The notes beneath the pieces are model-generated. The model saw only the letters and a program-made list of their open reading frames with translations. It was not told where the DNA came from and did not search any database. Positions 2,467 to 34,747 of a stretch of DNA of 41,660 nucleotides are shown in pieces. Each line of letters starts with the position of its first letter. The first letter of the stretch is position 1. The position numbers and the translations under genes are program-made. The stretch spans positions 1 through 41,660 of IMG/VR virus record IMGVR_UViG_3300049911_000020; one strand, given 5' to 3'. Origin of the DNA: a virus.

Positions 2467-2687
2467 TGCCTGACGCGAGAACTCCGATTGAAAAGATGAT
2501 TGACGACGCGTGTGGCGTTGACACGCCAGATACATCTTTAACCTTAGACGAGCGACGTGCCTATCGTTTGCGAAAGACCGGAGACGCTGCGAAGGCGTGG
2601 TATTTAGCCCGAGGACCACGCCGGAGAGCTTTCGCGGAAGGCAGACTGCGTATTGCTATCAAGAAACTGATTGACCTAGGATGGTGA
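2466..2687 (+). CDS. Small basic hypothetical protein
   Basis: The product has 73 residues starting at ATG 2466 inside TGATG. The C-terminal half is rich in Arg/Lys (YRLRKTGDAAKAW... GRLRIAIKKLIDLGW) and predicted helical, compatible with nucleic-acid binding, but no named domain is recognised. It stands immediately upstream of the methyltransferase, with no gap. Confidence 0.5.
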   Translation: MPDARTPIEKMIDDACGVDTPDTSLTLDERRAYRLRKTGDAAKAWYLARGPRRRAFAEGRLRIAIKKLIDLGW

Positions 2688-2701
2688 AAGGCGGACTGAC
2701 C

Positions 2702-4576
2702 ATGCCTGACGCGATCCGCGAAGGGTGGCCCAACTGTTACCGGGCACGGTGGAACAAGGCCGATGTACATCCCGATACGTTTAGCCATCCCGCGAAGTTT
2801 CGGCCCAACCTAATCCGGCGGATTTACCTTCACGCCATCGGCGAAGGTTGGCTTAATACCGGCGATACTGTGCTAGATCCGTTCGCGGGTGTCGGCCTTG
2901 GGGCCTACTACGCCCTTGTATATGGCCTCAACTGGGTCGGGGTCGAACTGGAGCCGAAGCATGCCGATGTCGGGGGCGGCTGCGACTGTACCGGATTCAC
3001 CAAGGCCGAGTGGCGCCAATACTTTCACCGCGGCGACCGCATGCGGTTCAAGGAGCGGCATTGGTGTCCCGACTGCGTGCGGACGATTGATTGGGTGGAC
3101 CAAAAGAAGAACGCGAGCCGCCGGATTCCCCACGCGGACGCCCACCGCTTCGCTGGTAATATCGGGTTGTGGAAATCCCGCTACGTCCGCATGCCGAACC
3201 TGGGAGATGCCGTCCTGCTTCAAGGTGACAGCCGGACATTGCTGACCTGGGGACGGTTTGGGCCGGGGGCGGATGGGATAGTTGCGTCTCCGCCTTATTC
3301 TGGCGCTTCTGGTGAAGGAAGGACAGCCGAACGTGACCGACGTCGGCTTGAGAAAACAAGTCCAGAACTTGTCGGGAGATTTGATACCTGCTTCCGAGAC
3401 GAAAAAGGCTACGGCATCTCCCCCGGCCAGCTCGCGGCGATGAAAGAGGGGAGCTTCGAGGCGGCGATAGGGTCGCCACCGTATGCACTGACCGCGACCG
3501 CCAAGAACAGCCCTGGCGTTGATTTGACGAAGCAATACGAAACCTATCGCTCTCAGGGCGGTGGAGCAAGTTTCGAGGCATTCTGCGCGACACAGCGGAA
3601 ACACAGCGAAGGTTACGGATCCCACCCCTCCAATCTCGCCTCCTTGCCCGAAGGGTCCATGGACGCCGCCATCTCCTCGCCGCCGTATTGCCACGGACTG
3701 AGCAAGGAACATACTTACGCCGACCACGAGAAGCGGGAGACTAGTAGCCATCGGGATATTATGCGTGAGAAGGGAATCGCCGATCCCTTCTACGGGCAAG
3801 ACCCTGCGAACCTTGGTCAGATGAAAGAAGGTGACTTCGCGGGGGTGGTGGGGAGTCCGCCTTTCGAGAACTCCATCGGTGACGCGGCGAATCGCCCAGA
3901 CAAAAAGACAATTCGGCCCTTCTTACCCGCACGGCAAGAAGTGGCTTTATACTTGCGACAACGAAGAGGTGAACTTGGAATTACCTGCAAGCAGATAGAC
4001 GAAACGCTTGGGACGTGTACGCTCTATTCTTGGTATGAAGGGCGCCCTGCGGGAACAGAAATCCCCACACCAGAACATTGGTTGAAGTTGAAGGACATTC
4101 TAAAATTAGATGACAGATTTGACGACGCGATTATGACCGAGCGAGAAGTTGAGGCCAAGGGAAAAAATACCACAGACAAGACTGGACACTCAAAAATTGA
4201 TTGTTACGGTTCAACTGCCAACCTCGGCAACCAATCCGGCCCCACCTTCTGGTCCGCCGCCCGCATCATCCTCGCCAACTGCCATGCCCTGCTGCGCCCT
4301 GGCGGCCACGCGATTTGGGTCGTGGGCCCCTACGTCCGCAAGGGCAAGCTCGTGGACTTTCCGGCGCAGTGGGCACAGCTCTGCGAGGCGGTCGGATTTA
4401 CCACCCTGCACGTCCACAGATGCCCCAAGGTTGAGACTTACGGCACCCAGAGACACCTGGATGGCGGGGAACAGCAGGAAACCGTCGAAAGGGTGAGCTT
4501 CTTCCGGCGACTGGCGAACGCGAAGGGCAGAGCTAGGGTGGACTATGAGGATGTTTTGTGTCTCGAACGCCCATGA
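2702..4576 (+). CDS. DNA methyltransferase with four SPPY/F motifs
   Basis: A SAM-dependent DNA (amino-group) methyltransferase of about 624 residues. The SAM-binding motif DPFAGVG is coded at 2876-2896. The catalytic-type motif (V/I)xSPP(Y/F) occurs four times, at 3287, 3473, 3677 and 3854, spaced 59-68 residues apart. At least three are preceded by a similar phrase (MKEGSFEAAIG, LPEGSMDAAIS, MKEGDFAGVVG), so an internal module is repeated. A Cys/His-containing insert (CDCTGF... HWCPDC) follows motif I. A segment coded near 3930-4130 (QEVALYLRQRRGELG... TLYSWYEGR) resembles a helix-turn-helix and may recognise DNA. The C-terminus (LLRPGGHAIWVVGPYVRKG) is typical of the fold. ATG 2702 is preferred because of AAGGCGG upstream; ATG 2681 is an alternative. 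Its likely role is to protect phage DNA from host restriction. Confidence 0.87.
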   Translation: MPDAIREGWPNCYRARWNKADVHPDTFSHPAKFRPNLIRRIYLHAIGEGWLNTGDTVLDPFAGVGLGAYYALVYGLNWVGVELEPKHADVGGGCDCTGFTKAEWRQYFHRGDRMRFKERHWCPDCVRTIDWVDQKKNASRRIPHADAHRFAGNIGLWKSRYVRMPNLGDAVLLQGDSRTLLTWGRFGPGADGIVASPPYSGASGEGRTAERDRRRLEKTSPELVGRFDTCFRDEKGYGISPGQLAAMKEGSFEAAIGSPPYALTATAKNSPGVDLTKQYETYRSQGGGASFEAFCATQRKHSEGYGSHPSNLASLPEGSMDAAISSPPYCHGLSKEHTYADHEKRETSSHRDIMREKGIADPFYGQDPANLGQMKEGDFAGVVGSPPFENSIGDAANRPDKKTIRPFLPARQEVALYLRQRRGELGITCKQIDETLGTCTLYSWYEGRPAGTEIPTPEHWLKLKDILKLDDRFDDAIMTEREVEAKGKNTTDKTGHSKIDCYGSTANLGNQSGPTFWSAARIILANCHALLRPGGHAIWVVGPYVRKGKLVDFPAQWAQLCEAVGFTTLHVHRCPKVETYGTQRHLDGGEQQETVERVSFFRRLANAKGRARVDYEDVLCLERP

Positions 4577-18973: not shown

Positions 18974-19762
18974 ATGACAACTCCGGTGGAGATCTGCAAC
19001 AAGGCCCTGCGGATTATCGGGGTCGCGCCTATCACCACGCTTGGGGCGGACGGCACACCCCAAGATGTCCTGATGAACGACATCTACGCGGAGAAATGGC
19101 GCAAGGTCTTTCGGGACGCCGGAGTCAATACCACGCGGGCCAGAGTGCAGCTCAAGTACACGACGATGGCGCTTGCTCTGAGCAGCGTTGCGGTCGGGAC
19201 GGGCATCACGGCCACGGCGGCATTGGCATTCTTCAATGTGAATGATGTGGGATCGCACATCAAGGAGCTGGGGGCCGGCGCTACAGGCATCGCGGAAATC
19301 ACCGCGTACACATCCCCCACGGTCGTCACGATCTCCAACACGACCGCCTGGCACGGCACCTCGCCTGTCGCCTTGAACGGCTGGTATCTGAGCCCACTGG
19401 GTTCGGGCATGGAGTATGTCTATCAGTTGCCGACCGGGTACATCTCGGCCATCGAGATGGATGACGCCAGGCAGACCTACCTGATCGAGGGCCAGCGGAT
19501 ACTCAGCAATGGTCCAGGCTCCATCCTGCACTTCCATTGGTATGACGACAATCCCGACCACTGGGACGACGATATTCGGGAAGCGGTCATAGGGAAGTTG
19601 GCCGTGGAGGCGGCGTGGCCACTGACCCGGAGCAAGACGGCGGTGGAACTCGCCCTGAACTACTCCGAGAGGGCCATGCGGGCGGCGCGGGGGGCGTCCA
19701 AGGCCGAGACGCAGCCTGAACGACGTGTGCCGCGTAGCATCCTGCGGGACGTGCGATACTGA
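18974..19762 (+). CDS. Tail tubular protein A-like adaptor
   Basis: The product has 262 residues. The opening TTPVEICNKALRIIGVAPITTLGADG... and ... LMNDIYAEKWRKVFRDAGVN is the usual N-terminus of T7 gp11-like adaptors that join the portal ring to the tail nozzle. An unusual strand-rich insert (residues about 65-130) separates it from the C-terminal part ILHFHWYDDNPDHWDDDIREAVIGKLAVEAAWPLTRS, which is also typical of the family. Its stop overlaps the next start. Confidence 0.82.
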   Translation: MTTPVEICNKALRIIGVAPITTLGADGTPQDVLMNDIYAEKWRKVFRDAGVNTTRARVQLKYTTMALALSSVAVGTGITATAALAFFNVNDVGSHIKELGAGATGIAEITAYTSPTVVTISNTTAWHGTSPVALNGWYLSPLGSGMEYVYQLPTGYISAIEMDDARQTYLIEGQRILSNGPGSILHFHWYDDNPDHWDDDIREAVIGKLAVEAAWPLTRSKTAVELALNYSERAMRAARGASKAETQPERRVPRSILRDVRY

Positions 19763-22056
19763 TGGCTGAAACGCGGACAATCCAGAACAGCTTCAACACG
19801 GGCGAAGTCTCGCCGATGATCGGCGGTCGTACCGATCAGCAGCGGTACTTCAACTCCTGCCGCACACTGGAGAACTTCGTCCCGCTCATTCAGGGCGGTG
19901 TGCGCCGACGCGGAGGGATGGCGTATGCCGGGGCGGCCAAGGCTGTCGCGTACCTCATCCCGTTCATCTTCTCCCGAACGGATGTCTATGTCTTGGAGTT
20001 CACGGATAAGATCATTCGCTTCTGGAAGTACGACGCATACGGAAACCCGTCTCAAATCCCTGACAGCATAACACCGCTGGAAGTTGTGACGACCTACACG
20101 CTGGCCGAGTTACCCTCCGTTGTCGTCAAGCAATCAGCGGATGTCCTCTTTATCGTGCATCCCGCGCATGCCCCGGCGAAACTCAGCCGGATCACTGAAA
20201 CATCGTGGACGCTCTCGGACATCATCTTTGATCCCCCGCCGACCTACGAGCCGGACACGGACCTTGCGACGACGCTCTACGCCTCGGCGGCCACTGGCAC
20301 CGGCGTAACGTTCACAGCGGGAGCAGGTGTCTTTCTCGAGGGGGACGTGGGGCGGCATATTATCGGCTATGACGGAGCCGAGGCCATCATTACGGCCTAC
20401 ACGTCAGATACCGAGATGGTCGGAGACATCCTGTCCGGCAGTTTCCCACTTGTGGCGAGTCCCTACTCCTCCGGCCAATGGTGGCTGGATGGGAGCCCCG
20501 TTGTCGAGTGTACCGTCAACAAACCGGGGCCGAAGGGCGCCTACGTCTTGCTGCAACTCATTGCCCCCGCTACGGACGGCTTTAGAGTGGGGGATGTGGG
20601 CAAATACGTTCAGATTCTCGGCGGCACAATTAAGTTGACCGTGTACATCGATGCCCAGCACATGGGGGGCATCGTGGTCTCGTTCTTGTCCACCTGGAAC
20701 GCTACCATCAATTATGCCTATGGCGGGGCATGGACGATGGAGGTGGAGACGTGGACCTCCGCCCGGGGCTATCCCTCCTGCCTCACGCTCGGGGAACAGC
20801 GGGCGATCTACGGGGGGGCGGCGGCAGAACCGGATACTATTCGAGGGACGGACATCGCCGACTATTACGGCTTCCCGCCGGGCACGAATGATGACGATGC
20901 CTTGGCTTATGTATTGGCCTCCGAGGAAGTCAACATCTTGTCGTGGCTCTACTACTGGAAGGGACTCGCCTGCGGGACGCTCGGGAGTGAGTTCACGATC
21001 ATGGGGGCTTCCGGTGGCCCGCTTGTGCCGTCCGGTGCCTCGGGCGGAACCGTAATGACGCCCCAGACCACCTATGGCTCCGAGCCCATGCAGCCTGATA
21101 AGGTGGAGGACGCGTTGCTCTTTGTCGAACGGGGGGGCCGCAAAGTTCGGGAGTTCATTTACGACAGCCGCATGGACAGCTTTCGGGCGTTCGACCTGTC
21201 GGCCTTCGCGGATCATCTGACCTGGACGTACCCCTTTGTGAAGAGCACCTACCAGAAGACGCCCTATCAACTCGTATGGTACATGCGCTCGGATGGGTCC
21301 CTTTGTACCCTTGCGTACAGCCGCGAGAACGAGATGACGGGGTGGGCGAGGCAGACAACGGCTACGGCTGCGGGCGCAAGCGTTGTAGTGTCAGCCTGCT
21401 GCATCCCGAATCCCGTCAAGAAGCGGGACGATCTCTGGCTGTCCATCACGCGGGTCATTGGCGTAAGCACTGTCCACACCATCGAAATTCTGGACTTCGA
21501 CTACCACCTCGACTGCGCGAAGAAATGGACCGGCGCGGCCTCTGCGACCGTGACCGGCCTTGCGCACCTCAACGGGCAATCCTGTCAGATCCGAGGAAAG
21601 GGTGCCGATGGCCTCTGGAGACTCTACCCTCCTCAGACAGTCGCCAGTGCCCACGTCACCGGACTCTCGCCGACTGTTGTTGAGGCGGAGGTCGGGATCG
21701 CCTATACGGCCACGCTGGTCACAAATCGCCTGGAGATTCAGGGCAAGGGAACGCTCCAGGGCCGCATCGTTGGCATCGGCACGATAACGCTCCGGTGCTT
21801 CGATACGCCGTGCCTGAAGATAGGAAGCGTGCGGTACAAAGGCGGGAACCAGCAGGGCATGGCAGCGGGGTACGTCCCGGCGTCCGTGTACGTGATCCCG
21901 ACCACTACGCAGGCTATCGCCGTCCCTCTCGACGATGGGGATATTGAGGTCTCGAACCAGGGCTACGACCGCTACGGGCGCGTGACGGTGGTGCAGGATT
22001 TACCCATTGAGACGACCATTACGATGATGACCGCCAAGGTGGATGTCGGTGAGTGA
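19762..22056 (+). CDS. Tail tubular protein B-like nozzle protein
   Basis: The product has 764 residues. It opens with IQNSFNTGEVSPMIGGRTD, YFNSCRTLENFVPLIQGGVRRRGG, the hallmark start of the podovirus tail nozzle family, followed by KAVAYLIPFIFSRTDVYVLEF and repeated beta segments. GTVMTPQTTYGSEPMQPDKVEDALLFVERGGRKVREF is typical of its middle. Six copies form the tail tube that opens to eject DNA. It lies directly after the adaptor and overlaps the next gene by 14 bases. Confidence 0.87.
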   Translation: MAETRTIQNSFNTGEVSPMIGGRTDQQRYFNSCRTLENFVPLIQGGVRRRGGMAYAGAAKAVAYLIPFIFSRTDVYVLEFTDKIIRFWKYDAYGNPSQIPDSITPLEVVTTYTLAELPSVVVKQSADVLFIVHPAHAPAKLSRITETSWTLSDIIFDPPPTYEPDTDLATTLYASAATGTGVTFTAGAGVFLEGDVGRHIIGYDGAEAIITAYTSDTEMVGDILSGSFPLVASPYSSGQWWLDGSPVVECTVNKPGPKGAYVLLQLIAPATDGFRVGDVGKYVQILGGTIKLTVYIDAQHMGGIVVSFLSTWNATINYAYGGAWTMEVETWTSARGYPSCLTLGEQRAIYGGAAAEPDTIRGTDIADYYGFPPGTNDDDALAYVLASEEVNILSWLYYWKGLACGTLGSEFTIMGASGGPLVPSGASGGTVMTPQTTYGSEPMQPDKVEDALLFVERGGRKVREFIYDSRMDSFRAFDLSAFADHLTWTYPFVKSTYQKTPYQLVWYMRSDGSLCTLAYSRENEMTGWARQTTATAAGASVVVSACCIPNPVKKRDDLWLSITRVIGVSTVHTIEILDFDYHLDCAKKWTGAASATVTGLAHLNGQSCQIRGKGADGLWRLYPPQTVASAHVTGLSPTVVEAEVGIAYTATLVTNRLEIQGKGTLQGRIVGIGTITLRCFDTPCLKIGSVRYKGGNQQGMAAGYVPASVYVIPTTTQAIAVPLDDGDIEVSNQGYDRYGRVTVVQDLPIETTITMMTAKVDVGE

Positions 22057-22902: not shown

Positions 22903-24473
22903 TGGAACTCCCGCGCTATCAGTATCAGGAATCGCCCACCGTGCGGGAATCCTTGCCCGGCGGCACGCCGCAAATTCTACCAGGGGCCATAGAGAGATTC
23001 GGCAGGGAATTAGGCGGATTGGCCCAAGAGCGAGCCCGGACGGAATATCTCATCCAGGCGTCCCGTGAGCAAGTCCAGGTCGCCGGGATCGTTTCGCAGC
23101 TCGACGCCTACGCGGACAAGTGGTACGAGGGCATCGACGCGAAGCGCACGCCGGCTAATACCGCAGAAGCCTACCGAAAGGAGGCCGGCGAGTTCACCGA
23201 GAATCTTCTGGGTTCTATCCAGGGGGAAGGGTTGAGGAACCGGGCCACGGCCCACGTCATGGCCAAGATTGAGGGCCAGGCCCACGGCATGCGGGCGCGG
23301 GCGAACGAGATGTGGGTAGGGGCCACGCTTGCAGATGCCAAACAGCAGACACAGGATGCCATCAGCCGCTATGCGATGGCACCGAATGCGGAGGCCCGAG
23401 GGTTGATCCGGCAGGAAGTAGAAACGTTCTGGCAGGGGCTTGCTGACTACGGCGTTGAGCGTCCAGAACAGGCTCAAGCGATTGTCTCCACGTTCCGTAG
23501 CCACGCAGAGAACGCAGCGTTTGACCACGATGCCAAAAACAATCCGTGGCAGGCCAAAAAGGACCTATCTGCCGGGAAGTATTCCCTCTTCACTGATCAG
23601 GAGAAGTGGGCCGCTAACACCCGCGCCACGACGCGCATCCGTGAGGGCGATGCTCAGGTTGATCACGAGATCAAGCAAGCCGACGACGCCTTGCGCGTGA
23701 AGTTCGTCTATGACCTCGCTGACGGGGTATATGGCAGGGGTAAGGACGTGGATATGTCCAAGGTGGAGACGATGCTGAAGGCGGGGAAGCACGAGGCTGC
23801 CACTGTCGAGCATATTCTGGGCCTTGCCACAGCGGAGAAGAAGCGGGAGGTAGTGGCTGACGAGAAGGGGTCTAAGCTCACCGCTGCCAGCCTGAAGCGG
23901 AGGATGGACTATACCACTGCGGATAAAATCCGGGAGGCCAAGTCAGTTGCCGAGACCGACTTTGCTGAAGGGCGTCTCCGACGAGAAGAGTTTGACGATG
24001 TGCAGCGTGAGTATCGGGAACAGATGGAGAAATTGGACAAGAAGGTGCAGGCAGCGAAGGACGACCAGACCAAACAGATTGAGGGACTAAAAGACGAGGC
24101 GACCCACGAAATGCTGTCCTGGATGCCCTCCAAGGATGACCCGCTCCTTTTCGGCATCAAGGGGGATCTCATCCAAGCTGAGGAGGCTGGTCGGGCGATA
24201 ATTGCGAAGGCTGCGAAGGGTGGCAAGGACCCGGTGGCTGCCATCAGGGAGGCGAAACAGTCTCTTACGCTTCGGGTGTATGGGACCGCAAGGTCCGCTC
24301 GTGACGCCAGATTGTCCGACCTGGAAAAGGCCGGATTGAAGCCAACCAAGACCCTGGCCGATGACATTGAAAGGCTGCGCCTGCCCCCCGAGGAAAAGCG
24401 CAGGCTGAAGGTCCTATTCAACGACGCCGCTGAATTGCAACAGTGGATGGACCGGAACCCCCAGAGGCCGTGA
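22902..24473 (+). CDS. Internal virion protein, gp15-like position
   Basis: The product has 523 residues. It is almost entirely helical and rich in Glu, Lys, Ala. After a disordered start (YQYQESPTVRESLPGGTPQ) come phrases such as GRELGGLAQERARTEYLIQASREQVQ and AHVMAKIEGQAHGMRARANEMWVG, typical of the second podovirus internal protein, ejected into the cell with the DNA. No enzyme motif is seen. It overlaps the previous stop by one base and the next start by one. Confidence 0.72.
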   Translation: MELPRYQYQESPTVRESLPGGTPQILPGAIERFGRELGGLAQERARTEYLIQASREQVQVAGIVSQLDAYADKWYEGIDAKRTPANTAEAYRKEAGEFTENLLGSIQGEGLRNRATAHVMAKIEGQAHGMRARANEMWVGATLADAKQQTQDAISRYAMAPNAEARGLIRQEVETFWQGLADYGVERPEQAQAIVSTFRSHAENAAFDHDAKNNPWQAKKDLSAGKYSLFTDQEKWAANTRATTRIREGDAQVDHEIKQADDALRVKFVYDLADGVYGRGKDVDMSKVETMLKAGKHEAATVEHILGLATAEKKREVVADEKGSKLTAASLKRRMDYTTADKIREAKSVAETDFAEGRLRREEFDDVQREYREQMEKLDKKVQAAKDDQTKQIEGLKDEATHEMLSWMPSKDDPLLFGIKGDLIQAEEAGRAIIAKAAKGGKDPVAAIREAKQSLTLRVYGTARSARDARLSDLEKAGLKPTKTLADDIERLRLPPEEKRRLKVLFNDAAELQQWMDRNPQRP

Positions 24474-27400
24474 TGGCAAAACTTGACCCCAAATTCCTCC
24501 AAGACCGCGAGGCCGCCTACAACGACGAGGTTGACGCCAAGTTCGAGCGGCTGAAGTCGGTCAACTTTGGGTTTCCCGAGGAGAAGCCCGCGCCAACGAC
24601 AGTCGGGCAGCGGGCCAAGAAACCCTATGAAGAAATCCTCGCCGACCCCGCTGCGAGTCGGATGGAGCGGTTTGTTGCCGGCGTAGTTAAGGGCGCTCGG
24701 GGGAGCCCCAATGTTTTCCGACCTCTTACCGACACCCCAACCGACAACCCCATTACGAGGTTGGGTGAGGTGGCCGCCCTGCCGTTCACGATGGGGTTTA
24801 ACGCGCTATCCCAAGGCTTCGTAGAAGCCGGCCTGATCAGCCAGCGCCACGCCGAAGAAATCGGGCAGGCTATTGTGGCTTCGACTCCTGCGCTGGTGTC
24901 TCCCGCTGGAATGGCGGCGTTGCGCGGGGTGAGGGAAAGGATGGCGCTGAAATCGTCCGTTTTAGACGATACGGGGGTGCCGAAAAAGGAAATTCCAGGT
25001 GCAGCACCCGGTCCCGCGATGGAAACCGCTACCAGAAACATCCAACTAGAGTCGCAACTGTCTCGGCTCGTTGCGGGCAACGAGAAACCAACGCTCCAGC
25101 ACGCCCAGCAAGCCAGAACCTTGATTGAACAAAATCCTGGCATGAGCGAGGCTGACCTGATTCGCAAGACTTTGGGCGGAATGACTGAGGCGGAGGCCCA
25201 AATCGGTAAAACCCCCTGGGGGCAAGTCATGGCCAAGTTGTCCGATGACGCCCTTGCAGAGGTTCGGGCCAAAGCAGAGGCCGGGGCAGCAACGCTCTCC
25301 ATTGAGACCGAGGCCGGGAAAATCGAAGGTCCCCGGGGTGATGTCCTGAAGGGCATTCAATGGCAGGAGCAGACCCGGGGGATCAAGCCGGGAGTCCGTG
25401 CCGCCGATGTTGTCACGCAGCGAGAGGTTGAGCCATCGGGGGAGGAACCAGGAGGACAATCTACTGCCCAGCTCTCTCCCAATGCTCCTGAGTGGATGGG
25501 TCGGGCGTGGACCGGGGAGCCTCGGGAGGTTCCCACAACCGAGAAGCCCTTCTCCATCGTGGAGCCGTCTGAGGCTCCCCCAGCCACGCCCGCGGGGACT
25601 CCAGCGGCCCCAGGTGCCACGATCCCGCCCAAAGAGGCACCTGAGTACCTTCCTGGCTTCAAATACCCTCCAGGAGGCCAAGGGGGCACTGTTGGCAAGG
25701 TGCTAGCGCAGTTCAAGGCTGATACCACTGCCGAAGCACTGCGGGATGTCCAGAAACGGGGGGTGGTGGGAGATGAACCGGCTCACGCCAAGGCAACAAG
25801 CCTAATCCAGTCAGGCAGGTGGGACTTGGAGAGGGTAGCCGGACTGAATCCTGGCGATACGGTCAACGTCGAGGAGGCCATTGCCGCTCGATCCATTGCG
25901 GATGCCGCCATGCTGAACGCTGGCAGAATCAGCAAACTGGCCCTCCTCGGGCAATATGACGAGGGCGCCGCCGCCTCGATCATGGTGCAGGCCCGGATGG
26001 CGGCACACAACACCTCGGCACTCTTCTCTGAGGCCGGGCGCGTGGTCCGAATTGCCGGACAAGAGGGCCAGGTGGCAGGTGCACAGGCGATCATCGGCAC
26101 CATGCCGCTGGACCCCTCCGGCGGTGGCATGACGGACGCCATGTATCAACTCCCGGGTTCCGAGCGGGCACGCCTCCTAACCGAGAAACTGTCCAGGGAT
26201 GCCGGGGGACCCCGGAGGCTCCTGGAACAGTACGCCATGCAGGACAGCAAAGTAGCCCGGGACCGCCTGGGAAGTTGGCAGATGCGGTTCGGGCGGGCCA
26301 CGATGGAGCTGGCCTATAACTCCTACCTGAGCCCCCGGACGTGGTTCAAGATCATCCGCTCTGGGACCCTCGTGACTCCCACGGTAAGCCTCATTGAGAC
26401 TGCCGCAGCGGAATTTCCACGGCGAGCCCTTGCCGCCATCGCCCCAAACCTCGTGGACCCACTGGGTGGGGTCGTAAAGGGCACCGCCTGGGCCAATTTC
26501 ATGTCGCTGAAGAATGCCCTCGGGGATGCGGTGCGCGGTGTGGGGGATAGTTGGCGGGCTACGGCGAAAGTCGCCAAGGAGTCCGGCTGGGTAAAGGGCG
26601 AGCAGGAGTTTTTAACCAACCTCGCCCAGTCTAACCCCGCCTGGGGCCGCTACATGCAGAAGTGGAACTTTCGACCCCGGATTTCTAGTGAAGGCTTCCC
26701 GGAAGCGCCGGAGATGTTCGGGGACGCCGTTGCTAAGACTGTGGATGTTCTGGGCGCCATTGGGAGACACAACACAGACGGGACCGCTGCCTCCCATGCC
26801 TTCACATTTACGTTCAACTACCGCATCGGGGCCGAGATGAAGACCCACGAGATGGCGGTGAAGGCGGGCCATGCACCGGGAACTGCCGCATACGAGTCAT
26901 TCAAGAATCACCTGATGGAAACGATGCCATCCGAGGTTGACCAAGCGGCTATGCAGCATGCGGCCACAAACACATTCATCAACCAAGGCCATTCCGCCGT
27001 CATTAAGGGATTGCAACACACGATGGGCGGCCAACATGTTCTTGTCCGTTTGGCTGTCGCTCCCTTTACTCGCGTTCCCCTGAACAAGCTGGAATACGTC
27101 CTGGAGCGGACACCCGGCATCCAATTCCTGATGGACGGATGGCGGAATGACTTCATGGCGGGTGGGGCGAAACGGGATATGTCGATTGCCAAGGTCGGGA
27201 CCGGACTCGTCGGTCTAATGGTTATGGCGGACCTGGCGGCGAATAGGTACGTGACGGGCAGCCCGCCCAAGGACCCCAAAGAGCGGCAGGCAATGGACGA
27301 CGCTGGCATTCCGTGGCGCTCCTACTGGAACCCTGTCACACAGAAATGGAACAGCGCAGGAGAAGCGGAACCTCTTGGGGATTGGATTACCATTTCTGCC

Positions 27401-28249
27401 GATATGGTCCACATCTCCAGGGACATCAAGGATGCCCGCTTTTACGACTACGCGATCCCCCTTGCGATTGCCGCAGGGGAGAGTTTCTTCAATCAGGGCA
27501 TGATGATGGGCCTCTCAAATTGGATGCACGTCTTTTCTGGCGGAGATCCCAACCAGACCATCAACGCCTTCACTCAGGCGATGCGGCCCCCCATGCCATT
27601 CCAGGGAGACCTGCAAACGCTAGACCCGTACCTGGATGGAATCCGCAAAGAGGCGAGGGGATTCACCGATCACTACCTCGCCATGCTACCGGGAAACGGC
27701 CTGCCCTCCCACCGGAATCGGATCACCGGGGAGCCGCTGCACTACGAGGGCGCGTGGCCCACGGACATGCTCTCGGCCTTCGCCACTCACACGATGAGCG
27801 ATGACAGGGTGCTGCTGGAGATCACGAGGCTTCGGGGGGCAGGCATCGAGAAGTTGCCGGATCACATCGGGGGACCGAGGCCACCTGAGTATGTCGAGAC
27901 CGAGGTGCCAGGGCATCCGCCCGGAGTCGGTCTGACCCCGCAGCAGAAAGACCGATGGATTGTGCTCCAGACGCAAGAAGTGAAGGCCAGCGGAAAGACG
28001 ATGCACCAAACCATGACCGATCTGGTGAACGGAGAGCGTTATCAGCGCATGCCTGACCCAGAGAAGGCGCGGGAGTTGGCGCATATCTTTATGGTCTATC
28101 GGGGCATTGCAGACGAGAAGTTGAAGGCAGAGGACAGGGGTTTGGCGCTGGACGTTCGGAATCAACTCATGGGGAAGCGCATTGAATATCTTCCCACGGC
28201 CCAGCAACCCGCAGCCCGCGAACGTCTCCTCTCCACCTTGGGGCGATGA
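24473..28249 (+). CDS. Large internal virion protein (gp16-like), 1258 residues
   Basis: This is the longest gene; ATG 24473 overlaps the previous stop (TGATG), so the further-open frame upstream is not used. A charged N-terminus leads to a hydrophobic helical stretch (LGEVAALPFTMGFNALSQGF...), a Pro-rich linker near residues 350-400 (PPATPAGTPAAPGATIPPKEAPEYLPGF...), and a long helical C-terminal part with membrane-like segments (TGLVGLMVMADLAANRYV, IPLAIAAGESFFNQGMMMG). Proteins in this position are ejected first and form the DNA conduit. I do not see the Glu-Ser lytic transglycosylase motif that T7 gp16 carries. Confidence 0.82.
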   Translation: MAKLDPKFLQDREAAYNDEVDAKFERLKSVNFGFPEEKPAPTTVGQRAKKPYEEILADPAASRMERFVAGVVKGARGSPNVFRPLTDTPTDNPITRLGEVAALPFTMGFNALSQGFVEAGLISQRHAEEIGQAIVASTPALVSPAGMAALRGVRERMALKSSVLDDTGVPKKEIPGAAPGPAMETATRNIQLESQLSRLVAGNEKPTLQHAQQARTLIEQNPGMSEADLIRKTLGGMTEAEAQIGKTPWGQVMAKLSDDALAEVRAKAEAGAATLSIETEAGKIEGPRGDVLKGIQWQEQTRGIKPGVRAADVVTQREVEPSGEEPGGQSTAQLSPNAPEWMGRAWTGEPREVPTTEKPFSIVEPSEAPPATPAGTPAAPGATIPPKEAPEYLPGFKYPPGGQGGTVGKVLAQFKADTTAEALRDVQKRGVVGDEPAHAKATSLIQSGRWDLERVAGLNPGDTVNVEEAIAARSIADAAMLNAGRISKLALLGQYDEGAAASIMVQARMAAHNTSALFSEAGRVVRIAGQEGQVAGAQAIIGTMPLDPSGGGMTDAMYQLPGSERARLLTEKLSRDAGGPRRLLEQYAMQDSKVARDRLGSWQMRFGRATMELAYNSYLSPRTWFKIIRSGTLVTPTVSLIETAAAEFPRRALAAIAPNLVDPLGGVVKGTAWANFMSLKNALGDAVRGVGDSWRATAKVAKESGWVKGEQEFLTNLAQSNPAWGRYMQKWNFRPRISSEGFPEAPEMFGDAVAKTVDVLGAIGRHNTDGTAASHAFTFTFNYRIGAEMKTHEMAVKAGHAPGTAAYESFKNHLMETMPSEVDQAAMQHAATNTFINQGHSAVIKGLQHTMGGQHVLVRLAVAPFTRVPLNKLEYVLERTPGIQFLMDGWRNDFMAGGAKRDMSIAKVGTGLVGLMVMADLAANRYVTGSPPKDPKERQAMDDAGIPWRSYWNPVTQKWNSAGEAEPLGDWITISADMVHISRDIKDARFYDYAIPLAIAAGESFFNQGMMMGLSNWMHVFSGGDPNQTINAFTQAMRPPMPFQGDLQTLDPYLDGIRKEARGFTDHYLAMLPGNGLPSHRNRITGEPLHYEGAWPTDMLSAFATHTMSDDRVLLEITRLRGAGIEKLPDHIGGPRPPEYVETEVPGHPPGVGLTPQQKDRWIVLQTQEVKASGKTMHQTMTDLVNGERYQRMPDPEKARELAHIFMVYRGIADEKLKAEDRGLALDVRNQLMGKRIEYLPTAQQPAARERLLSTLGR

Positions 28250-29502
28250 TGGAGTACAAGTCGAAGTGCTGCGCGGTCGTTGACAATGGCTTGTTTATAG
28301 ACTTGGCCACAAGCCTTGTTAAGGATTTTGGCAAGGTCTACTACAATTCGCCCGCTGTAGACGCCTTTATCAGTTCTAACGCGACCGTGCTCGGGAAGGG
28401 CATTCCCGGTGTCACTAGGGTAGACGACATCTGGAAGATTGCAGACGAGGTGAACCTTTGGATATTTCCAGACTGCTACTACGGGGGCCTGCAACTCCAC
28501 CTGGAAAGTCTCGGCAAGCGCGTGTGGGGCGCACGGATGGGTGAGGAGTTAGAACTTGACCGCGTGAATTCCAAGCGGCACCTGAAGAAACTCGGCATCA
28601 ACATCGGCCCCTATGTCGTTGTCAAGGGCCTGGAGAAACTTCGGGAGCACCTGAAGGCGCACGAGGACCAATGGGTCAAGGTGAGTCGGACACGGGGCGA
28701 CGTGGAAACCTTCCATTCGCCTAATTACAAGCTCATCGAGCCCGTGATTGACGAATTGGAAAACAAACTTGGTGCCAAGAAAGAACTCATGGAATTCATC
28801 GTCGAGGAAGGCATTCCCGATGCTGTCGAGGTGGCCTATGACGGCTTCACCGTGGATGGCCTCTTTCCGGGTGCTGGCATGGTCGGCATTGAAGTAAAGG
28901 GCAAGAGCTACGTCGGCATCTTCCAAGACGCGGCGGACATGCCGGAGCAGATCACAGAACCGAATGAGAAACTTGCCGACACCCTGAAGCGGTATCGCTA
29001 CCGGAACTGGCTCTCCCTGGAGATGCGGATCACGGAGGGCGGGGCATACCACGTCATTGACCCCTGCTGCCGCTTCGGGAGCCCACCGGGCGAACTGGTG
29101 CCTCTGATGTACACGAACCTAGCCGAAATCTTTTGGGAGGGCGCGGACGGGAAACTAGTCGAACCTGTTCCTTCCGGTAAGTATGGCGTCGAGTTGAGGA
29201 TGGAATCCCAGTGGGCGCGGGATCACTGGTTGCCCGTGTACTTCCCCACGGAGATTCGGGATCACGTCCGTTTGCGGAATATGTGCATCATTGACGGGAC
29301 CTATTACATCGTGCCGCAGAGTGCCAAGGTGGACAACATCGGCGGGCTGGTCGCTACGGGCGACACACTAGAGGCCGCCATTGAAGAAGTGAAAGGGTAC
29401 GCCTCGCAAGTTGAAGCCTACGGGTTGGACATCTTTGAGGACAGCCTTGACCAAGCGCAAGAGGAAATCGAAAAACTTGCAAAGATGGGGGTTGAGTTAT
29501 GA
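28246..29502 (+). CDS. ATP-grasp-type ligase-like enzyme in the virion operon
   Basis: The product has 418 residues. The order of parts matches ATP-grasp enzymes: an N-terminal Rossmann-like domain (FGKVYYNSPAVDAFISS... VNLWIFPDCYYGGLQL), a middle beginning GINIGPYVVVKGLEKL with the nucleotide-binding Lys in QWVKVSRTRGDVE, the binding strand MEFIVEEGIPDAVEVAYDGF, and the metal-binding end SLEMRITEGGAYHVIDPCCRFG, whose E-x-R and D-x-x-x-R spacing fits the usual Mg sites. Such enzymes join a carboxylate to an amine using ATP. The substrate is unknown. The gene interlocks by four bases with the internal virion and tailspike genes, so it is made with the virion. It is not a usual podovirus gene. 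The call rests on motif layout only. Confidence 0.7.
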   Translation: MMEYKSKCCAVVDNGLFIDLATSLVKDFGKVYYNSPAVDAFISSNATVLGKGIPGVTRVDDIWKIADEVNLWIFPDCYYGGLQLHLESLGKRVWGARMGEELELDRVNSKRHLKKLGINIGPYVVVKGLEKLREHLKAHEDQWVKVSRTRGDVETFHSPNYKLIEPVIDELENKLGAKKELMEFIVEEGIPDAVEVAYDGFTVDGLFPGAGMVGIEVKGKSYVGIFQDAADMPEQITEPNEKLADTLKRYRYRNWLSLEMRITEGGAYHVIDPCCRFGSPPGELVPLMYTNLAEIFWEGADGKLVEPVPSGKYGVELRMESQWARDHWLPVYFPTEIRDHVRLRNMCIIDGTYYIVPQSAKVDNIGGLVATGDTLEAAIEEVKGYASQVEAYGLDIFEDSLDQAQEEIEKLAKMGVEL

Positions 29503-31463
29503 AGCGATTACTGTGGATTGCGGCTATCCTGCTCGCCATTCCGCTCTGGTGTACGCCGGGACATGGGGCCATCCAGGTAGGACCCCTCGTCCGCGCGAAC
29601 TGTACCGACATCACCGCACCTGTTGAGGACAAGACATGGTGCTTTCAGCAGAGCGACGGACAACTTTATGTCCGGCATGGTGGAGCGTGGATCACCACGG
29701 CCCCAGGCAGCGTGACGATTCCTTTGCCTTCCTACGATTACGCCGCCCTCCCAACGCCAGATCCGGTATATCCCGGTCGCCTCGTGCGCGTGAAGGATAA
29801 TATTCGTGGTCCCTGGATAGACACAGGAATCGCCTGGCGGAGCCTCACGGGTGAGGCAAACGTTGACGACTTCGGCGCGGTAGGAAACGGCACGACTAAT
29901 GACGCGGCGGCTATCCAGGCGTGCATTGAAGCAGCTTACGCGGCGAGTGTCCCTTGCGTGGCCGTGGGTTCCAAAGCGTACAACATCACCACCACACTGA
30001 ACCTCGCGGACCATTGGGGGATGCAGTTTCTCGGACGCCTTGGATTCGATTCTGCGGGCCCCCGCCTCATCGGGAACACTGGCGCAGGGAATCCTATTAT
30101 TGACGCCTACGGGATGCACGGGGGATTGATCGAGGGGTGGAACCTTACCGGCGTCACGTCCACCATTGGAGTTACCGTAGGATGCACTACGCTGAATAAT
30201 GCTATCGGGGGACGCCTGCGGAATGTTCAGATCGTGATGCCCACCGATCCAACGGCGAACAATAGCACGGGCACGATAGGGATTCTCAACCGGGGCGGCG
30301 ATGAAGTCACGTATGAGAATATCATCGTGTCGGCCAACCTCCCGATGGTCCTCATGGGTGGAGGACTGGTTACGTCGGACCTTAGTTGGGTGCGTGGCGA
30401 CAGTGTTTCGACCTACGTTCCCGCGAGTGCATTTGCAACGCTCGCCCCTATGTCCGTCGCAAATAATCATTTCGTCGGGAACAGTCACCTTGTCGCCATT
30501 GGGTTTCACCGGCCTACCCTGGCGATGTCGTGGACAGACAACACGGATGCGGGGGCGCTCTACATGGCGTCCATCACGGGCGGGGCGGGCGACGGGACCT
30601 ATAGCGTTGCCATGAATTTGGAGAGTGCCCGGGGGTTGCACATTGCGAGTGGGTTTGCCGAGAATGTTCTGACGGCCATTGAGACGGGGTATCTCTGGAA
30701 TTCTTCAATCCAACTCACGACCAATGACGCTACGGCGACCAATGGTCCGATAATCGTAGTCTATGGTGGCGCGGCGGGCGGCATTCGGAATACGTCTTTC
30801 AGGATCGGGACATCTTCCGCAGCCCGGTACGTCATAGATCAAGATGGCGGTTCCCCTCTTACGTCTCTCATCGAGGCGACGGACTTTAACACTGACAACC
30901 CTGGAGCGGGCTACACACTGCCGACTGCTGGCATCGCGGCCATTCTTGGAAGCGGCGTGACCTTCCGCTCGCGGGTGGATTTCTGGAATGGAAACTTCAA
31001 CTTCAACACCGCGCTGTATCAAGTCTTTGATCTAAACTTGCTTGCCACGGCAGGGGGTGTCACCCAACATGCTATTCGGGCACCGGGTACGGCGGTGCTT
31101 CCCCCTCTCCTGACGAAGATCACCGGGGCATCGGCTACCCTCCAGAATACCCCCGGCCTCACCGCCGCTGTGGACTTTACCACAGGGGTCGGCATCGTTG
31201 CTGCGGCCAATTACATTATCCTCCTGAAAACAACGGTTGCCCCAGTAGCCAGTTATGAATTATTCACGGCCACGGTAATCTACAATGACACCACAGTAGC
31301 AGTCACCGTGCAACCTCTCTCCTACTCAGCGAACGTGAACGGAGTCACCCGGTATTGGCTGGGCCTGCTCGTCAGGAACGCGACGACGGGGGCGGGCATC
31401 GACCTGACCAATCTGGGCGCAAACCTCTCAATCCAAATCCTCGTTTCAGGGTTCATTTACTGA
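29499..31463 (+). CDS. Tailspike-like protein with Sec signal and pectate-lyase-type beta helix
   Basis: The product has 654 residues. The N-terminus MKRLLWIAAILLAIPLWCTPG and a GHGA cleavage-like site (about residue 24) form a good Sec signal. A small domain follows (residues about 25-120, with QQSDGQLYVRHGGAWITT). From residue 121 the phrase VDDFGAVGNGTTNDAAAIQACI marks the start of the pectate-lyase-3-type right-handed beta helix used by many phage tailspikes to bind and cut host polysaccharide. The C-terminal 140 residues look like a trimer-forming tip. It overlaps the ATP-grasp gene (ATGA). The signal is unexpected for a tail part assembled in the cytoplasm. Confidence 0.82.
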   Translation: MKRLLWIAAILLAIPLWCTPGHGAIQVGPLVRANCTDITAPVEDKTWCFQQSDGQLYVRHGGAWITTAPGSVTIPLPSYDYAALPTPDPVYPGRLVRVKDNIRGPWIDTGIAWRSLTGEANVDDFGAVGNGTTNDAAAIQACIEAAYAASVPCVAVGSKAYNITTTLNLADHWGMQFLGRLGFDSAGPRLIGNTGAGNPIIDAYGMHGGLIEGWNLTGVTSTIGVTVGCTTLNNAIGGRLRNVQIVMPTDPTANNSTGTIGILNRGGDEVTYENIIVSANLPMVLMGGGLVTSDLSWVRGDSVSTYVPASAFATLAPMSVANNHFVGNSHLVAIGFHRPTLAMSWTDNTDAGALYMASITGGAGDGTYSVAMNLESARGLHIASGFAENVLTAIETGYLWNSSIQLTTNDATATNGPIIVVYGGAAGGIRNTSFRIGTSSAARYVIDQDGGSPLTSLIEATDFNTDNPGAGYTLPTAGIAAILGSGVTFRSRVDFWNGNFNFNTALYQVFDLNLLATAGGVTQHAIRAPGTAVLPPLLTKITGASATLQNTPGLTAAVDFTTGVGIVAAANYIILLKTTVAPVASYELFTATVIYNDTTVAVTVQPLSYSANVNGVTRYWLGLLVRNATTGAGIDLTNLGANLSIQILVSGFIY

Positions 31464-33862: not shown

Positions 33863-34747
33863 ATGAAGAGCAACACAGACCTATCCGTTTCGGAATGCCT
33901 CGACAGTTACGAAGCTCGCTGTGATCGTGACGGGGTGAGAGGCGTGGCCATTCCGAGCATCCTGAACCACCTACGAGCGAGATTCCAGGACGCCCCACTG
34001 TCGGAGGTGACGAGCCGGGATGTGGAGCAGATGAGTGCTGAACTCCTTGCCCATCCCTATGCCCCCGCCACCGTCCAAGCCCACATCGCCTACCTCCGGG
34101 CGGCCATGCACTACGCTCAGAAGAAAGGCGAACTGACCGCGCTCCCTTGGTTCCCCAGCATCAAGGTGGAGAATGCCCGCAGAGGATTCTTTGAACGGGA
34201 CGAATTCGAGCGGATTCTGGCTTGCCTGCCGGAACCCTATGCAGACATCGCCCGGTTTGGGTATAGCTGTGGCTGGCGTCTATCGGAGATCCTCGGCCTT
34301 CACTGGTCCGAGGTGGATCGGGAGCGCCGAATCATCCGGCTCACAACGTCCAAGAACGGGCATGGGCGGGTCTTGCCTATCGTCGGCGAACTGGTAGAGA
34401 TCCTTGAGCGTGCGTGGCGAAACCGGATCGTGGGCGACAAGTTGTCGGAGTGGGTATTCCATCGGGCGGGGCACCGGATTCCGAACAACCGCTCTTGGAA
34501 CGTGTGGAATGCCGCTAGGAATCACGCGGGACTGACAGGACGCCTCTTCCATGACCTGCGCCGGACTGCGGCCCGAGACATGATTGCGGCTGGCTGCGAC
34601 TACCAGACGGCGATGGCGGTCACGGGCCACCGAACCATGAGTATGTTCCTCCGGTATCAGATCGTTGATATGCGGGGAGTGCAGCAGGGACTACGGAGCC
34701 TGGAGGCGTACCGGAATGGGAATGGGCACCAAAGCGCGGCGGCGTGA
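33863..34747 (+). CDS. int: Tyrosine recombinase (phage integrase)
   Basis: The product has 294 residues. All expected catalytic residues are present: Arg near 139 (CGWRLSEILGL), Lys near 164 (TSKNGHGRVLPI), His-x-x-Arg at 240-243 (FHDLRRTAARDM), His near 256 (VTGHRTM) and the nucleophile Tyr near 265 (FLRYQ). The N-terminal SAM-like DNA-binding half (DAPLSEVTSRDVEQM... VQAHIAYLRAAMHYA) is typical. It integrates and, with help, excises the phage genome. GGGGG in the hairpin loop is the likely ribosome site. No excisionase is recognised nearby. Confidence 0.94.
   Translation: MKSNTDLSVSECLDSYEARCDRDGVRGVAIPSILNHLRARFQDAPLSEVTSRDVEQMSAELLAHPYAPATVQAHIAYLRAAMHYAQKKGELTALPWFPSIKVENARRGFFERDEFERILACLPEPYADIARFGYSCGWRLSEILGLHWSEVDRERRIIRLTTSKNGHGRVLPIVGELVEILERAWRNRIVGDKLSEWVFHRAGHRIPNNRSWNVWNAARNHAGLTGRLFHDLRRTAARDMIAAGCDYQTAMAVTGHRTMSMFLRYQIVDMRGVQQGLRSLEAYRNGNGHQSAAA

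Follow-up and report, generated by a model that had tools for sequence, protein, structure and literature searches.

The stretch of viral DNA analysed here (hereafter the window; all 41,660 nucleotides of IMG/VR virus record IMGVR_UViG_3300049911_000020) encodes, on the plus strand at positions 28246..29502, a 418-residue ATP-grasp ligase of the PurD fold, recognised by alignment, profile and predicted structure. The family to which it belongs is intact, has the ATP-grasp fold and its invariant residues, is under purifying selection, and occupies an operon position in which linkage to particular partner genes recurs. Our preferred interpretation, to which we give a probability of roughly 0.6, is that this late-expressed enzyme joins a carboxylate to an amine, the latter often being supplied by a dedicated decarboxylase.

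The ligase gene is tightly interlocked with its two neighbours, which belong to the same operon. Its ATG at 28246 overlaps by four bases (ATGA) the TGA of the upstream gene (24443..28249, plus strand), which encodes an internal virion (ejection) protein of 1268 amino acids (phrog_6651, 4.5e-12), whilst its own TGA overlaps, again by four bases (ATGA), the ATG at 29499 of a tailspike-like gene of the pectate-lyase type (29499..31463, plus strand; 654 amino acids; phrog_7458, 1.3e-5). The product of the latter matches Pect-lyase (PF12708) at 4e-4, below the Pfam cut-off. The original prediction had described an open reading frame of 418 residues, placed between internal virion and tailspike genes and sharing four bases with each, and the coordinates, the ATGA junctions and the matches of both neighbours bear this out; the motifs that it had listed (QWVKVSRT, MEFIVEEG, SLEMRITEG and IDPCCRFG) are all found in the translation. 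Two T7-type tail protein genes (18974..22056, plus strand; 262 and 764 amino acids; phrog_394 at 7.9e-23 and phrog_376 at 1.3e-139) mark the virion gene block of the window, which also encodes a head-tail adaptor, a major head protein, a terminase and a tyrosine integrase. This integrase (33863-34747; phrog_1, 1.4e-48) lies in a phage with T7-type tail genes, and the window is therefore most likely from a temperate phage with tail genes of the podovirus type.

Relatives of the ligase are encoded on 174 IMG/VR stretches, reached by iterated scans that yielded 1, then 11, then 174, and those of full length share 34-67% identity. Twelve residues are invariant in the 88 aligned sequences (K145, R150, E154, E187, E195, D199, E216, K218, E259, D272, R276 and N291), among which K145, E187, E259 and D272 are the nucleotide-binding lysine and acidic metal ligands of ATP-grasp enzymes (88/88), and R276 and N291 also count among the ATP-grasp residues. 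The ratio dN/dS is low, about 0.04-0.13 in unsaturated pairs. Because of these full-length relatives, invariant catalytic residues and low dN/dS, 28246-29502 is not a chance reading frame, and the only sensible reading of the sequences is that of an enzyme under selection rather than a relic. Almost every member of the family sits on viral contigs. A first scan of a collection of bacterial and archaeal genomes returned none, and a second returned six contigs with the ligase, one of them from Bradyrhizobium sp. YR681; among 297 genomes of the family of Bradyrhizobium the gene is found in one, which is this starting genome itself. At least 174 viral-contig stretches carry the ligase, yet Pfam and PHROG scans of the window protein matched no family, and tblastn of the same protein against INPHARED (50,697 phage records, E up to 10) gave no match, as did a search with one of its relatives.

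The relationship to PurD (GAR synthetase, EC 6.3.4.13) emerges gradually with the sensitivity of the comparison. A single-sequence search gives PurD as the best PDB sequence match at E 0.011, whilst a profile of 79 ligase sequences reaches PurD structures 2yw2 at 1.1e-6 and 1vkz at 6e-6. The AF2 model of the window ligase (pLDDT 95.7, pTM 0.93) retrieves GAR synthetases in all first 12 rows of a Foldseek search (best 1e-20), and in the VIA structure comparison PurD chains hold ranks 1-13, with Z of 28-32 over model residues 1-410; PurT and PurK follow below PurD at Z of about 24, and biotin carboxylase also scores high. In these three analyses (AF2, Foldseek and VIA) the predicted structure contains an ATP-grasp fold preceded by a pre-ATP-grasp domain, and VIA shows the full-length PurD fold, with N-terminal, ATP-grasp and C-terminal domains in PurD order. 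The ATP-grasp identity could hardly be made firmer by computation. It had also been called in the original prediction, together with two findings that would have spoken against it, a predicted structure lacking the ATP-grasp fold and relatives lacking the nucleotide-binding Lys and metal-binding Glu/Asp; both were looked for, the fold is present and the residues are kept, and the best fold match is to carboxylate-amine ligases of the PurD type.

This likeness also takes in the nucleotide-binding Lys and the Arg of ExNxR, yet only about 15% of residues are identical to PurD, and the window protein does not match Pfam GARS at E<=1. The phosphoribosylamine-site motifs GSGGREHA and ExNxRxGDPE of PurD were not found in the alignment of the family, which has DNGLF at the N-terminus and DxCxRxGSPPxE in the place of the latter; at the metal site, where PurD has the Asn of ExN, most members have Cys or Thr, giving D-x-C/T instead of E-x-N, and the invariant E259 aligns to a non-acidic Gly or Ala. 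Since the PurD fold covers the whole length and the PurD substrate motifs are absent, the protein is an ATP-grasp carboxylate-amine ligase but not PurD. That it might nevertheless be a true GAR synthetase, boosting purine synthesis for phage DNA replication, is suggested by the full-length top matches in both fold and profile searches, but we regard it as very improbable, given the loss of the motifs for phosphoribosylamine and glycine (no GSGGREHAL-type N-terminus, and RxGSPPxE in place of RxGDPE), the extra Glu at 259 and the low identity. The gene also lies among late virion genes and not among nucleotide genes, and the Bradyrhizobium genome that carries the viral ligase gene has an ordinary PurD too. 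A role in purine synthesis was rejected on the loss of the PurD motifs from the family.

ATP-grasp enzymes encoded by phages are known (PMC7824862), and those annotated include the R2K peptide ligases of jumbo phages, RimK- and TTL-like enzymes and the carboxylate-amine ligases of LUZ24-like phages, which have the fold in common with the present family. Even so, no close full-length relative was found in BFVD, PHROGs or INPHARED, the best BFVD match reaching only E 5.7e-9 and TM 0.46. The L-amino acid ligases (BacD/YwfE type, LAL_C2) would be expected to have a similar general chemistry, and they give a weak C-terminal match in 8 of the 79 ligases (best E 0.007), which is not significant and leaves the full domain unmatched.

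A further difference from PurD is that the ligase occurs in a viral operon with SpeD-like or zincin-like partners. The gene for a SpeD/AdoMetDC-like pyruvoyl enzyme (120-140 amino acids) is present in 44 of 88 ligase loci, mostly directly upstream of the ligase and often overlapping it. The profile of these proteins matches PDB 2iii at 1.7e-6, and 31 of 36 match Pfam AdoMet_dc (PF02675). The Thermotoga maritima SpeD needs S63, H68 and C83 (PMC10407285); in the SpeD-like partners the pyruvoyl-forming Ser and the catalytic Cys, corresponding to S63 and C83, are invariant (36/36), a feature in common with published phage SpeD homologues, whereas the position of the processing His is occupied by Asp in 29, His in 6 and Glu in 1. 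Their decarboxylase activity is uncertain, as judged from sequence, because of this replacement of the processing His by Asp in most of them. The published phage homologues, which decarboxylate ornithine or arginine (PMC9992855, PMC10407285), differ from the partners in this position and in the linkage of the latter to an ATP-grasp ligase, of which the main text of either paper makes no mention. When SpeD-type genes were scanned for with no condition on the ligase, all 39 loci found had it (39/39), a figure that speaks for that subfamily only, the patterns having been built from a subset of the ligase-linked members and many of the 39 contigs being already in the ligase set.

The second recurrent partner is a small protein of 110-135 amino acids with invariant H, E, D and H, named HELIE after a motif that mostly reads HExxE (the zincin helix being HExxH), and it is encoded in 22 of the 88 ligase loci. 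Its AF2 model (pLDDT 95) has weak best matches, all zincins (selecase, IrrE/PprI and abylysin, Z 5.1-5.4), and no match to these proteins was found in PHROGs or INPHARED. A separate scan, run on a subset of the HELIE alignment, gave 315 stretches, of which 80 were retained; the ligase is present in 37 of these, usually as the adjacent gene and on either side. A few of the other loci have, on the same contig, a second ATP-grasp family that resembles PurD; the A3 profile reaches it at about 1e-6, and its gene touches that of HELIE in L183 and L195 (L followed by a number denotes a relative's locus). The genes of this distinct family lie at L183:4721-5992, L206:2164-3438, L195:4447-5778 and L202:4074-5348, and in phage records their distant matches bear the annotation purD (Acinetobacter phage MD-2021a). 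The literature search found no paper with the pairing of ligase and partners, and, so far as the sources searched go, this family and its linkage to the partners seem not to have been described.

The gene order around the 88 ligase loci shows mosaic phage contexts, with many different adjoining genes and no single virion gene constant. In one class, to which the window belongs, T7-type tail genes and then large internal virion proteins precede the ligase, and a tail fibre or spike gene follows it; in another, the ligase stands between a terminase and a P22-like portal gene, and this portal is found in 30 loci. Such varied contexts argue against a tailspike-specific role. The tailspike had been proposed as a possible target, and a search for the same gene beside tailspikes in other phages had been suggested; the ATP-grasp part of that proposal stands, but the tailspike as target finds no support in the gene contexts, where the neighbours vary and are often the terminase and P22-like portal. 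The tailspike as an obligate partner was rejected from these neighbourhoods.

In the tree, the window ligase groups with that of L013 (67% identity), and both lie within a supported set of 11 rows that includes L014, L015, L016 and L020. These four carry a tail gene of the phrog_376 type (in L014 only the end of the gene is in the contig) and have the ligase in the same genomic slot as the window, but with SpeD, alone or together with HELIE, placed after the internal virion gene and before the ligase. No SpeD-like or HELIE gene was found in the whole 41.7 kb record of the window or in the whole L013 record, so that the pairing of ligase and partners is drawn from the relatives; the partners may have been lost in the window lineage or gained in the others.

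ATP-grasp enzymes of the PurD type use ATP to activate a small carboxylate, which they then transfer to an amine. By analogy, the ligase would use ATP to activate a carboxylate as an acyl phosphate, with a free amino acid or a small acid as its most likely source, and would join it to an amine to form an amide; we infer this activity and chemistry, the small-molecule amine acceptor, the substrate source and the biological role. As an enzyme dedicated to the phage, it would be produced late, through translational coupling within the virion-gene operon. With a SpeD-like gene next door, the simplest model is that of an amine made by the decarboxylase and an amide made by the ligase, and in about half of the relatives the amine would probably come from the SpeD-like pyruvoyl decarboxylase encoded immediately upstream. 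In other relatives the small zincin-like protein may trim or remove the product, whilst in the window lineage the amine is presumably host-derived, because both helper genes are missing. The recurrence of the pairing suggests that these phages make or attach an amide-linked compound during infection.

What this compound might be attached to, if anything, is where the other explanations differ. The ligase could modify a protein of the virion (for instance the internal virion protein or the tailspike) or of the host with an amino acid, peptide or amine, a tag that the zincin-like partner would remove or trim. Its near restriction to phage records, usually inside the virion gene block, its ATGA coupling to the internal virion and tailspike genes in the window and the recurrence of the small zincin-like protein beside it are all in keeping with this, as are the links between ATP-grasp ligases and peptidases that Iyer et al. 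(2009) reportedly set out in their amidoligase review. We consider it unlikely all the same: none of the virion genes accompanies the ligase throughout, small molecules are the substrates of the nearest solved folds (PurD, PurT and PurK), a small amine is what the SpeD-like partner suggests, and the resemblance of the other partner to zincins is weak (best Z 5.4). As a special case of the favoured carboxylate-amine ligation, the product could be a conjugate resembling a polyamine and not a modified macromolecule, serving to neutralise the packaged DNA or to protect the infected cell; the SpeD-like partner and the late operon position, often between terminase and portal, make it conceivable, but the identified recurrent neighbours included no recognisable spermidine synthase or further polyamine gene and the window has no SpeD-like gene, which leaves it a tentative and rather unlikely idea. 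It is hard to refrain from a more speculative and rather doubtful combination, a tagging cassette mobile between the late operons of tailed phages, in which the SpeD-like enzyme would make an amine, the ligase would couple this amine, or else an amino acid, by an amide bond to a macromolecule of phage or host, and the zincin-like protein would remove or mature the tag.

Returning to the ligation of a carboxylate and an amine, the SpeD-like link turns it into a concrete and testable pathway of one decarboxylase, one ligase and possibly one peptidase. If attached to a virion or host protein, the product would represent an undescribed kind of phage protein modification, and as a small molecule it would be a phage metabolite not yet described.

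Some of the adjoining genes deserve a mention in their own right. Loci of the terminase-portal class have genes for small basic proteins beside that of the ligase (L079:6833-7102 and L062:4129-4425; neighbourhood clusters 4 and 10); the two examples seem alike in a C-terminal ending of the type G-x-IS-[ED]-K-x-M and could be substrates or head proteins. The tailspike-like proteins encoded just 3' of the ligase in the window (29499-31463) and in L013 (L013:11254-13212) both have a signal-peptide-like hydrophobic N-terminal stretch and a short Cys-containing N-terminal motif in common, whilst the remainder differs, being pectate-lyase-like in the window and GH43/GH32-like in L013. Far from the ligase, at 2681-4576, the window encodes a protein of 631 amino acids whose N-terminal region matches only the last third of the N6_N4 DNA methylase profile and which has a weak Eco57I match further along, possibly a truncated or rearranged methylase.
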